From assembly GCA_019873685.1 (NCBI GenBank), contig JAIOAT010000004.1, positions 62,001 through 126,000 on the forward strand: a stretch of 64,000 nucleotides of DNA. Direction: 5' to 3'. Below, piece by piece: positions 50,774-55,798 of the stretch. Position numbers and translations under genes: made by a program. Origin of the DNA: Chloroflexota bacterium (GTDB taxonomy: Bacteria > Chloroflexota > Anaerolineae > Aggregatilineales > Ch27). Numbering within the stretch: the stretch's first letter is position 1; every line of letters starts with the position of its first letter. The notes beneath the pieces were generated by a model. That model searched no databases, had not been told where the DNA came from, and was given only the letters and a program-made list of their open reading frames with translations.

Positions 50774-51838
50774 ATGGCCAATCTGAACCGCCATGAGATC
50801 AGACTGACGGCGCTGGCCAGCTGCGCGGGCTGAGCGTCCAAGCTCGGCCCGGACGAGCTGGCGCACGTGTTGCGCCCGTTACAGCAGCTATTCCTGCCGC
50901 AGGACTACCCCGATCTGATCATCGGCCTGAGCCAGCCTGATGATGCGGCGGTGTACCGCCTGGATGATCAGCGCGCGCTGGTGGTGACGACGGACTTCTT
51001 CCCGCCGGTGGTCGATGATCCATATGATTACGGCGCGATTGCCGCCGCGAACGCCATGAGCGATGTGTTCGCCATGGGTGGGCGGGTGCTGTTTGCGCTG
51101 AATATTGCCGCTTTTCCTGCCAATTTGCCCGCGGAAATCCTGAGCGAGATTATGCGCGGCGGGGCGGAGAAGGTGCGCGAGGCTGGCGCCGCCATCGCCG
51201 GTGGGCACACGATCAAGGATGACGAACCCAAATATGGGCTGGTGGTCATCGGGCTGGTTGATGCTGGCCGTGTACGGAGCAAGGCAGGCGCTCAGCCGGG
51301 CGATGCGCTGGTGCTCAGTAAGGCGCTCGGCACGGGGGTGATCACTACCGCGCTCAAGCAGGGCAAAGCTGCACCGAATCATGTCGCCGCGGCGGTGGCC
51401 AGCATGGCCCGGCTGAACCGCGCCGCGGCGGAGGCGGCCAACCGCGCCGAAGCACACGCTGTCACGGATATCACCGGCTACGGGTTGCTGGGCCACTGCC
51501 ATGAACTGGCGGAGTTGAGCGGGGTTGATCTGGAGATTGATCTGGATGCAATTCGCTGGCTGCCCGGCGCGGAAGACTACGCGGCGGCCTGGATTTTCCC
51601 CGGTGGCATGGCTGACAATCGTCTGTACTACAGCCAATGGGTGGACTTTGACCTGGGCATAACGGAGGACAGGCGCGCCCTGCTCTTTGACCCGGAAACC
51701 TCCGGTGGATTGCTGATCGCCGTCGCACCGGAGCGCGTCGATGCGCTGCTCCGCGATCTGAAAGCAGCCGGAGATGTGCCGCAGTGGATTGGTCGGGCGG
51801 TGGCAGGAACGGGGCGCTTGCGTATTCGCACCGACTGA
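50774..51838 (+). CDS. selD: Selenide, water dikinase SelD containing selenocysteine
   Basis: A 354-residue SelD, which makes selenophosphate from ATP and selenide. The frame contains one in-frame TGA (50831-50833) at residue 20. It falls in the catalytic site: ASCAG, then Sec, then ASK (Cys18-x2... in the pattern C-x-G-U/C-x-x-K). The Sec matches the catalytic Cys17 of E. coli SelD and the Lys follows it. Downstream are TTDFFPPVVDDP, GGHTIKD and a GGLLIAVAP ending. A start after the TGA (GTG 50867) would drop the catalytic site. A GGGAGAAG box lies about 7 bases before ATG 50774; ATG 50771 is an alternative. A SECIS-like hairpin follows the TGA. selA, selB and selC are not in the window. Confidence 0.93.
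50841..50859 (+). promoter_or_regulatory. Candidate bacterial SECIS hairpin in selD
   Basis: AGCTCG (50841-50846) pairs perfectly with CGAGCT (50854-50859) around a 7-base loop GCCCGGA. It starts 7 bases after the in-frame TGA, and its first loop base is G, as in the bacterial SECIS description. This is the expected position for SelB recruitment. Confidence 0.6.
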
Positions 51839-51988: not shown

Positions 51989-53884
51989 GTGCTGCAGGGC
52001 AAGGGCATCTTCATCTGGCAGGTGCAGAAGTGTGACCAGGGCGATTCTCAACGTCTGGTCGCGCTGGCCCGCGCCGCGCAGATCAGCCATGTCATCTTCA
52101 AGCTGTCAGAAGGGGCATACGACTTCCCGCCGCCGGCGCAGGACCCCGGGGGGCGGTATGAACTGCTGACCGATGCTGCCATCCGCGCCCTGCGCGGGGC
52201 CGGGATCGCTGTGTGGGCGCTGGCGCATATCCAGGGCCAGGATCCGGTCATGGAGGCGCACCGCGCTGCGGCGCGCGTGCTCAAGTGGCGGCTGGATGGA
52301 CTGGTTATTGGCCCGCAGGGCCAGTATGTCGGCCAGCATGAACGCGCCCGCGAATTCATGGCGACGATCCGGCGCGACCTGGGCAGCGAGCGCCCGCTGG
52401 CCTTCAGCCTGTTCCTGAACCCCGATACCCAGGACCCACCGGGCTGGCCGCTTTCGCGCCGTTTTCCAATTGACGAATTCGTGGCCGGGTGCGATCTGAT
52501 CATGCCTCAGGTGTACTGGATCGCGCGGGATGGCGGCGATCCGGCGGCAACCTTGCGCGAGAATTACGATCAATATACCCGCCGGTATCCCGGCAAGCCC
52601 TATGTTCCGACCGGGGCTGCCTTTGGAGAGCAGTACGGCACGATGCAGTGGACGGCCACCCCGGCGCAGATCGGGATGTTCCTGAACCAGGCGCGGGCGC
52701 TGGGCTTGCCCGCGGCCAACTTCTGGAGCTGGCAACACGCCCGCAATGACGCTGGCAATCCCCGTTATACGGCCACCCAGCTGTGGGACGCGATCGCCGC
52801 TTATCCCTGGCCGCTGGAAGGCCCGGAACTTCCTCCGGAACCCCCGGTCGAGGAAGATCCGTTCGCTGATCGCGTGGAGATCATCCCGCCGGGCGACCGG
52901 CGCTATCTGGATGGCATCTATGATCGCACCGGCGCGACGCGCTTCACCGTGATGAGCAGTGCGCACGGGCCGGTCAAGTACAGCGCTACTCAGCCGGCGC
53001 GTAGCACCCTGTGGGCGCAATGGGTGCCCGGCATCCGGCAGTCTGGACGCTACGAGATCGCCGTCTGGGTCCCCGGTACGCACGCGACCACCCGTCGCGC
53101 CCGCTATCACATTCGCGGGGTGGCCGGTCATGACAGCACGGTGATCGTGGAACTGGATCAGAATCGCTATTACGACCGTTTTGTGCCGCTGGGGGTGTTT
53201 GACCTGGACGCTTCCCGGCCTGACGCAGGGGCGGTGAATCTGACGAATCTGACTGGCGAGACCGGGCGCGAGGTGGCGTTCTCACCGCTGCGCTGGAAGC
53301 TGATCGGTAATACCCCGGATGCGCCGCTGGCCGATGGCTATGACGCGCCGGTGGGCACGGCTGAGGAACGGCGTGCTGACCGCCTGTGGCCGGGGCGATG
53401 GGTGGACGCGGTGGGGTTTGCCCGGCGGTACCGCGACGGCGCCCGCACCACAGCCTACCACACAGGTGCTGACCTGAATCTCAATGTGCCGCGCTGGGAT
53501 AGTGACCGCGGGGCAACCATCTATGCCATTGGCAGCGGTACGGTGGTCTTCGCCGGGCGGCTGGACATCTGGGGGCAGGTGCTGGTGATTCGCCACGATC
53601 CACGCGATCCGGACGGCAACCCCGTCTGGGCGCGTTACGCGCACGTGGACCGCGTTCAGGTACGGGCCGGCGATCGGGTTCGGCGCGGGCAACCCATTGC
53701 GGTGATCGGTAAGCCGGAGCCTGAAGGTGCGCCGTACCACCTGCACTTCGACATCTGTACGACCGGCATTCTGGAAGATGCGCCGGGGCACTGGCCGCGC
53801 CTGAATTACACCGAACTGATCACCCACTATGTGGATCCGCTGGCTTTCCTGCAGGCGAACAGGCCGCCTGAGTACTTACGTTGA
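51989..53884 (+). CDS. Barrel-golvesin-M23 peptidase protein 1
   Basis: This is a 631-residue protein in three parts. Residues about 1-275 look like a TIM-barrel glycoside-hydrolase-type domain (KGIFIWQVQKCDQGD, then DLIMPQVYW and FWSWQHA). About 300-430 resembles the golvesin/xly beta-sandwich (SGRYEIAVWVPGTHATT, then GVFDLDA). About 440-625 is an M23/LytM metallopeptidase with H491-x3-D495 (YHTGADLN) and H584-L-H586 (YHLHFD). M23 enzymes usually cut peptidoglycan cross-bridges. There is no signal peptide or membrane segment, so export, if any, is not classical. The GTG start has GGGAGGT 8 bases upstream. It is followed by a paralogue with the same layout. Confidence 0.85.
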   Translation: MLQGKGIFIWQVQKCDQGDSQRLVALARAAQISHVIFKLSEGAYDFPPPAQDPGGRYELLTDAAIRALRGAGIAVWALAHIQGQDPVMEAHRAAARVLKWRLDGLVIGPQGQYVGQHERAREFMATIRRDLGSERPLAFSLFLNPDTQDPPGWPLSRRFPIDEFVAGCDLIMPQVYWIARDGGDPAATLRENYDQYTRRYPGKPYVPTGAAFGEQYGTMQWTATPAQIGMFLNQARALGLPAANFWSWQHARNDAGNPRYTATQLWDAIAAYPWPLEGPELPPEPPVEEDPFADRVEIIPPGDRRYLDGIYDRTGATRFTVMSSAHGPVKYSATQPARSTLWAQWVPGIRQSGRYEIAVWVPGTHATTRRARYHIRGVAGHDSTVIVELDQNRYYDRFVPLGVFDLDASRPDAGAVNLTNLTGETGREVAFSPLRWKLIGNTPDAPLADGYDAPVGTAEERRADRLWPGRWVDAVGFARRYRDGARTTAYHTGADLNLNVPRWDSDRGATIYAIGSGTVVFAGRLDIWGQVLVIRHDPRDPDGNPVWARYAHVDRVQVRAGDRVRRGQPIAVIGKPEPEGAPYHLHFDICTTGILEDAPGHWPRLNYTELITHYVDPLAFLQANRPPEYLR

Positions 53885-53980
53885 CCGAGGACGCGCCGGA
53901 AGCCTGCCAGCCTATCCGGCGCCCGTAACGCGCACGATACCGGAGTAGCCTGTGGCTCATGAGGGATGGAGTGGGTTCCG

Positions 53981-55798
53981 ATGACAACGCCTTATGACGG
54001 GAAGATCGGCGTCTGGCACTGGAAGGGCAATTCGATCACCGAAACGTCTATCCAGGAAGTCGCCAACACATTCAAGGCTTACGCGCCGCACGTGACCCAG
54101 ATCTGGGTGAAGACCACCGATGGCTCGCAGTGGCAGGGCGTCTATGATACTGACCGCATGCTGGCGATTGATGGGCCGGCCAGCGTCAAGCGCTGGGCGC
54201 AGACGCTGGAAGCTAATGGCCTGGAGTTCCATGCCTGGTGTGTGCCCAAGGGGCGCGACATCAATGCGGAAGCGGACCTGATCATTCAGACGTGCACTCA
54301 GCCGGGCGTGCGTTCGCTCATCCTGGATATTGAGCCGTATGCCGGATACTGGGAAGGCGGGCGGACGCTAATCCGGCCGTTTATGGCCCGCATCCGCAAG
54401 GCGCTGCCGGCCGATTTTCATATCGGCATGGCGGTTGACCCGCGTCCGCAGTACTTCAACAGCATCTTCCCGGATGAGTGGTTCCCGTTTATCGACAGTG
54501 TCCACCTGATGGCGTACTGGGCTTCATTCCAGCGGCCGGTAGACGAAGTGATCGACCAGGCGTTTGCCACCTGGCGCAATTACGGGCGGCCCATCTTTCC
54601 CATCCTGCAGGCAAACGCCGAAGTCGCCGATATGGAACGCGCTCGCAAGCGGGCCATCGAAGCGCACGGCGCCAAGGGCGTCAGCTGGTGGCGGTTGGGG
54701 CTGATCGACAGCGCTGACTGGGCGGTGATCAATGTGCCGATCAGCGCCCACAAGCCGGGTGGTGAGGTTGGGCGTTACGGCAAGAGCATCATCGTCACGA
54801 CCGAATCGCCGCAATTTGCCTTCGGGACGCACACCGGCCAGCCGCCGGAGCAGGTTTTCACCGAGTTCCGCAATGCCAGAGGGTGGAAGAGCTACTACAA
54901 GGCGACCGAGGCGCGGCGCAGCCAGGTCTGGGCGCGCTGGGACCCGCGCCTGACCGAGAGTGGCTGGTATGAACTGGCGGCGTTTGTCCCGGCCAAACAT
55001 GCCACCACGCTCCGCGCGCGTTACAAGATCCACGGTGTTCGCGGGCGCAGCGGCGAAACCCTGGCGGTTGTGCCGCAGGATGTGCTGTTTAACCTGTGGA
55101 CTCCGCTGGGCGTTTACTATTTCGACGTTACTACGCCGACAGCCGGGGTGGTCTTCCTCAACGATCTGACCGGAGAGACTGGCCGCGAGATCGCTTTTGA
55201 TGCCATCCGCTGGCGCAAGGTGGAAGGCATCACACCTGCATCAACTTTCCTGGCGGATGGCTTCGACCCGCCGATTGGCGTTCCGGGGGAGCGGTTGGGA
55301 GCGGCTGTCTGGCCGGGCGACTGGTTTGATGCAACCGGGTTCGCGGCCCGTTACCGCGTAGGCACGCCGTATGAGGCATACCACACCGGCGCTGACCTTA
55401 ACCTGAACAAGCCGCAGTGGGATGCTGACGCGCACAGCCCGGTTTACGCGGCGGCGCATGGGGTCGTCACCCACGCCGCCCGCATCCCCGGCTGGGGCAA
55501 TGTGATCATCATCCGCCACGACCCGCTGATCAAGGATGGGCGGGTGATGTATGCGCGGTATGCCCATGTGGAGAACGTGCGCGTTCAGGTCGGGCAGCGG
55601 GTGGCGCGGGGTGAGCAGATCGCCAGCGTGGGCAATGCGGAGGGCGCGTACCCCTATCATCTCCACTACGATCTCAGCCCGACCGGTATCCTGCAGACGC
55701 AGCCCTGGCACTGGCCCAAGCTTGACCTGCAGAACCTGTTGCTCAACTACGTGGATCCGCGCCAGTTCACGCTTGACAACCGCCCGCCAGAGCCGTAA
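53981..55798 (+). CDS. Barrel-golvesin-M23 peptidase protein 2 (tandem paralogue)
   Basis: This is a 605-residue paralogue of the preceding protein with the same domain order. The barrel (GKIGVWHWKGNSITE, then SLILDIEPYAGYWEGG and HLMAYWASF) shows a DIEPY motif suggesting a glycoside hydrolase-like acid. A golvesin-like sandwich (SGWYELAAFVPAKHATT) and an M23 peptidase follow, with H468-x3-D472 (YHTGADLN) and H560-L-H562 (YHLHYD). No signal peptide is evident. ATG 53981 begins the barrel, and the frame also opens 15 bases earlier. It is separated from its paralogue by 96 bp. A strong terminator follows. Confidence 0.85.
   Translation: MTTPYDGKIGVWHWKGNSITETSIQEVANTFKAYAPHVTQIWVKTTDGSQWQGVYDTDRMLAIDGPASVKRWAQTLEANGLEFHAWCVPKGRDINAEADLIIQTCTQPGVRSLILDIEPYAGYWEGGRTLIRPFMARIRKALPADFHIGMAVDPRPQYFNSIFPDEWFPFIDSVHLMAYWASFQRPVDEVIDQAFATWRNYGRPIFPILQANAEVADMERARKRAIEAHGAKGVSWWRLGLIDSADWAVINVPISAHKPGGEVGRYGKSIIVTTESPQFAFGTHTGQPPEQVFTEFRNARGWKSYYKATEARRSQVWARWDPRLTESGWYELAAFVPAKHATTLRARYKIHGVRGRSGETLAVVPQDVLFNLWTPLGVYYFDVTTPTAGVVFLNDLTGETGREIAFDAIRWRKVEGITPASTFLADGFDPPIGVPGERLGAAVWPGDWFDATGFAARYRVGTPYEAYHTGADLNLNKPQWDADAHSPVYAAAHGVVTHAARIPGWGNVIIIRHDPLIKDGRVMYARYAHVENVRVQVGQRVARGEQIASVGNAEGAYPYHLHYDLSPTGILQTQPWHWPKLDLQNLLLNYVDPRQFTLDNRPPEP

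Follow-up and report, generated by a model that had tools for sequence, protein, structure and literature searches.

A selD gene with an in-frame TGA at the catalytic position, and its likely SECIS hairpin, in a member of the Aggregatilineales (Chloroflexota)

The 64-kb stretch of Chloroflexota DNA analyzed here (the window) almost certainly carries a gene for selenide, water dikinase (selenophosphate synthetase), selD, whose product has selenocysteine (Sec) at its catalytic position. The Sec codon is an in-frame TGA that a standard open reading frame (ORF) listing treats as a stop. UGA is very probably read as Sec in this organism, and the SECIS of the gene is likely the second of two hairpins downstream of that codon.

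50774-51838, + strand: selD coding sequence, 354 residues plus stop, Sec at residue 20 (family match and alignment)
50831-50833, + strand: in-frame TGA, predicted catalytic Sec codon (alignment and conservation)
50867-51838, + strand: truncated table-11 ORF of selD, GTG start, 323 aa

The selD gene and conservation of its in-frame TGA

The TGA at 50831-50833 shares its frame with the ATG at 50774 and the terminal TGA at 51836-51838 and is the only internal TGA of that frame. Readthrough gives a 354-residue SelD in which the UGA is residue 20, in the context SCAG-U-ASK. In a profile search, this product matched TIGR00476 (selD) with 377.8 bits (cutoff, 125), and AIRS and AIRS_C domains were found. 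Its best solved relatives were the SelD proteins of Escherichia coli (3u0o) and Aquifex (2yye); residue 20 lay opposite the Cys of GAGCGCK in the former and the Cys of SSGCAAK in the latter. In the E. coli protein, the residues opposite U20 and K23 were C17 and K20, both of which we take to be essential. The protein would therefore carry Sec at residue 20, as the alignment suggests, and would presumably make selenophosphate. The initial annotation had placed the TGA at the catalytic Cys/Sec position in a C-x-G-x-x-x-K context, and the alignment agrees with it, the Lys following three residues after the UGA. It had also held that standard calling would truncate the gene, and the table-11 ORF listing indeed breaks selD, leaving the 323-aa piece from the GTG at 50867, from which the active-site segment is missing.

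TGA was found at the identical selD codon in a second genome of the same genus (G001). Codon 20 was TGA in 20, TGC in 6, and TGT in 4 of the 30 loci fetched from the order (the window's own included). Among 68 loci of named genomes, the counts were 51 TGA, 11 TGC, 5 TGT, and 1 AGC, that is, 16 Cys and 1 Ser codons besides TGA. Judged by its conservation in G001, in the order loci, and in the named-genome loci, the presence of TGA at residue 20 is far beyond chance. The nearest named selD loci belonged to two metagenome-assembled genomes of the Aggregatilineales, an order of Chloroflexota, with 73 and 75% identity over SelD. In a plasmid search, all matches were under 60% identity.

The occurrence of SelB followed that of the TGA. 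SelD matches over the cutoff were obtained in 47 of 61 genomes, 35 with one TGA and 12 with none. One of these 12 matches (G054) was without the N-terminal part and was excluded from the comparison. SelB exceeded the cutoff in 35 of 35 genomes with a TGA-containing SelD versus 3 of 11 without (Fisher test, 6e-7, ignoring kinship among the genomes); the position of the TGA within SelD was read in all but 15 of the 35. In the profile search, a SelA match was not found in two TGA-SelD genomes (G019 and G031), where the gene may be missing as in draft genomes.

A Sec-containing SelD is a published and common arrangement, of which this locus is a tidy example. In the available portions of PMC4561486, Sec is reported in 19% of the SelD genes of a reference set, always at this position. 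The corresponding portions of PMC1794560 give FdhA and SelD as the most widespread selenoproteins in the surveyed bacteria, with 3 selenoproteins listed for Chloroflexi in its Table 2. As far as these portions describe Sec-containing bacterial SelD (SPS-Sec), the window gene shares with it the family, the single Sec position, the in-frame UGA, and the SelA/SelB/selC set. The host alone differs: it belongs to an order of Chloroflexota where SelD is commonly of the Sec type.

Two neighboring long ORFs of similar build, of 631 and 610 aa, lie downstream of selD at 51989-53884 and 53966-55798. Their C-terminal stretches were alike by eye (e.g., YHTGADLNLN), and they are apparently a tandem duplicate.

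Sec-decoding machinery of the host genome

An Rfam scan of the 64-kb window at gathering thresholds gave no match, and a tRNA search of the window found none; the Sec machinery was therefore sought elsewhere in the genome. The assembly from which the window derives (G000) comprises 4.12 Mb in 109 contigs and is 96.75% complete. It contains selC (G000:C36:7199-7293; 75.7 bits; anticodon TCA), selB (G000:C10:52719-54575; 354.6 bits), and selA (G000:C86:1659-2981; 550 bits). The SelB protein has GTPase and beta-barrel domains and two winged-helix domains (SelB-wing_2 and SelB-wing_3). SelD is not the sole selenoprotein gene, since the gene for FdhA, the alpha subunit of formate dehydrogenase (G000:C9:57743-59752; 864.3 bits), contains a single in-frame TGA (context, CARL-U-HSS), a feature shared by the FdhA genes of G001 and G007. 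The initial annotation had concluded that the organism decodes UGA as Sec and had named a genome without selB or selC as evidence to the contrary. The genome carries selC, selB, and selA together with a second selenoprotein gene, which supports that conclusion. The sel genes are spread over four contigs (C4, C36, C10, and C86) of a 109-contig draft, and a mixed bin is conceivable; each has a counterpart in G001.

Other origins of the TGA were also weighed. An error of sequencing or assembly, a decaying pseudogene, or a genuine 323-aa protein starting at the GTG at 50867 would fit a draft assembly in which such an ORF does exist under table 11. However, the independent assembly of G001 and the majority of order and named-genome loci have TGA at the same codon, and the 19 codons preceding it differ between the window and G001 by 5 synonymous and 0 nonsynonymous changes. 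The short protein, moreover, would be without the segment that holds the active-site Sec/Cys and Lys. We consider these explanations very improbable. A genome-wide reassignment of UGA to an ordinary amino acid (codes 4 or 25), which an internal TGA followed by further open sequence could also indicate, appears more improbable still: the terminal stop of selD is itself a TGA, and TGA closes 33 of the 68 open stretches of at least 250 codons in the window (stop to stop, six frames, independent of gene calls). Furthermore, the one TCA-anticodon tRNA seen, by searches other than a whole-genome tRNA scan, is tRNASec, and in the two genes examined the Cys/Sec codon alone is affected. Sequencing error, pseudogene, and reassigned code are thus excluded in practice, and Sec insertion at residue 20 of SelD is the reading adopted below.

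Uses of selenophosphate and loss of Sec decoding in relatives

The selenophosphate made by SelD probably serves two uses in this organism, Sec synthesis (FdhA also being a Sec protein) and a YqeB-dependent selenium-molybdenum hydroxylase trait. YqeB, which we take to be a marker of selenium-dependent molybdenum hydroxylases, was detected in G000 with 348.9 bits. Of 14 genomes searched for the selenouridine synthase MnmH, G000 among them, none gave a match over the cutoff, which makes selenouridine an unlikely use of SelD in this organism. In the available portions of PMC4561486, the hydroxylase trait is mentioned for Enterococcus.

Several relatives differ in their combination of these genes. 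YqeB was present in seven of the eight tested Cys-SelD genomes without SelA/SelB over the cutoff (G010, G011, G017, G021, G026, G027, and G041, but not G036); in these genomes, SelD seems to be kept for the selenium-molybdenum trait after the loss of Sec. One of them, G017, still has selC and, of selB, the final ~310 bases; it then jumps to sequence that in G022 and G037 is ~8.9 kb distant (L154 6174-7346 compared with L155 4943-15063 and L156 6260-16384). In the latter two, the missing interval holds selA in full and the greater part of selB. It seems that G017 lost Sec decoding through a single deletion that left selC as an orphan. In G022, G037, and G052, the Sec machinery occurs beside a Cys-type SelD (selC over the cutoff in G022 and G037 only), so a member of the order can decode Sec without its SelD being a selenoprotein.

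No SelD match was found in 5 of 43 SelB-positive genomes (G020, G024, G025, G032, and G047), in which SelA was also present. These five and G046 were searched again with the SelD protein, as was the genus of G032. The SelD-less genomes seemed unusual, but the loss of single genes through incomplete assembly would account for 3.95 of 43 versus the 5 observed, and the count fits missing pieces of draft assemblies. However, G020 has a completeness rating of 100%, and one genus is represented by G032 and G047 alone.

Two hairpins downstream of the UGA

The following two hairpins were considered as the SECIS of selD.

50841-50859, + strand: hairpin of the initial annotation, AGCTCG/CGAGCT with a 7-nt loop, 13 nt from UGA to loop
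50860-50876, + strand: likely bacterial SECIS, stem GGCGCA/TGCGCC (50860-50865 with 50871-50876), loop CGTGT (50866-50870)

The initial annotation had pointed to a 6-bp hairpin beginning 7 bases past the TGA. The hairpin exists as described, but it is likely not the SECIS. On comparative sequence grounds (the spacing rule, sharing among relatives, covariation, and loss in Cys-SelDs), that element is likely the second hairpin, at 50860-50876, rather than the one at 50841-50859. In the available portions of PMC13188914, the consensus model of the bacterial SECIS (bSECIS) sets the UGA-to-loop distance at 16 to 37 nt. With a distance of 32 nt, a stem of 6 bp (extending to 7 positions in relatives), and -9.1 kcal/mol, the second hairpin satisfies the published limits. 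It also resembles that model in its 5-nt loop with G at position 2 followed by U, and it differs from it in that the loop lies near the far end of the permitted range, with another hairpin in the spacer. The FdhA gene of G000 likewise has a hairpin after its UGA, with the loop CGTGC compared with CGTGT in selD; the FdhA loop starts 24 nt after the UGA and the selD loop starts 33 nt after it. Such near-identical loops are expected if one SelB reads both.

Comparison with relatives favored the second hairpin. The sequence sets comprised 69 TGA sequences (from 71 loci) and 24 others (from 27), duplicates and sequences that were too short having been dropped or merged. Across 65 distinct TGA rows, the seven pairs of the second hairpin were formed in 89.2% of cells. 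Double changes occurred in five of the seven pairs (36 double-change cells versus a shuffled mean of 8.2), and covariation was above that of every slid version. At the pair +27/+43, G-C was replaced by C-G through a silent Leu CTG/CTC change matched by one at the first base of a later codon. At +33/+37, G-C was replaced by A-U, and both codon changes involved (Gln CAG/CAA and Leu CTG/TTG) are silent. The 69 TGA sequences formed 6.3 of the seven pairs versus 4.5 in synonymous recodings, and the corresponding values for the 24 non-TGA sequences were 3.2 and 3.0. In the window alone, the excess (6 of 7 pairs versus 4.8 expected from synonymous recodings) was nonsignificant (P = 0.23). Synonymous recoding of positions +1 to +42 gave a mean z score of -1.30 for 65 TGA sequences versus -0.37 for 23 others, a comparison that mixes the two hairpins; when this region was split by hairpin, the effect lay mainly in the second. 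The difference in fold z score between TGA and non-TGA sequences was strong in the region of the second hairpin (P = 7e-8) and weak in that of the first (P = 0.055). The residues encoded over the second hairpin were A-[QH]-V-L-R in most Sec-SelDs and were more variable in Cys-SelDs, which suggests that the RNA constrains the protein.

We consider it unlikely that Sec is inserted through the first hairpin, at 50841-50859, with its extension of GCG/CGC and CC/GG pairs. This is the most stable free fold, with a mean pair probability of 0.98 in the window and 1.0 in G001. The region from +1 to +26 had a z score of -2.8 versus synonymous recodings in the window, and the hairpin is conserved in the four nearest sequences. 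Over the 45 nt after the TGA, stability was like that of dinucleotide shuffles (z = -0.24), and the longest stem was marginal versus synonymous recodings (P of about 0.07). Against a SECIS at this position, its 13-nt spacing is under the published lower limit, its six pairs were formed in 55.6% of cells in the 65 distinct TGA rows, and its covariation score (0.103) was lower than those of two slid versions. Moreover, the full 6-bp stem occurs among Sec-SelDs only in close relatives and is present also in two Cys-SelDs (L089 and L114). A second register of this hairpin was paired in some relatives but not generally. The first hairpin is possibly a spacer or a competing element, and the second is retained here as the likely SECIS.

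The two hairpins compete in the window, where the GCG/CGC part of the first hairpin's extension, just after the UGA, overlaps the second hairpin. In the free fold of the full stretch, the second hairpin had a mean pair probability of 0.02; when folding began only past the 11 bases that follow the UGA, about the length that a ribosome positioned there might occupy, the values became 0.00 for the first hairpin and 0.96 for the second. The same-genus locus L061 behaved like the window. In the next two relatives, L066 and L067, the full stretch accommodates the two hairpins together, and L067 reverses the trend when the first bases are omitted (0.83 to 0.20). Across the 69 TGA sequences, the mean probability of the second hairpin was 0.67 when folding started from +1 and 0.75 from +12, versus 0.00 for the 24 others. 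It is conceivable, as a long shot suggested by these fold models, that the hairpins are mutually exclusive in the selD mRNA of this genus, that the free RNA folds into the first, and that only a ribosome reaching the UGA would melt it, allowing the true SECIS at 50860-50876 to form.

By analogy with known systems, Ser-tRNASec made from selC would be converted to Sec-tRNASec by SelA, using the selenophosphate made by SelD. SelB, presumably bound to the hairpin at 50860-50876, would bring it to a ribosome paused at the UGA at 50831-50833. SelD would in this way help make its own active-site residue. The hairpin at 50860-50876 is accordingly the place for a silent-mutation test of the SECIS. If the hairpin switch were true, recruitment of SelB would be confined to ribosomes that have already reached the Sec codon. 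Since UGA is very probably a Sec codon in this organism, annotation of its other genes with an internal UGA should label them neither truncated nor pseudogenes.
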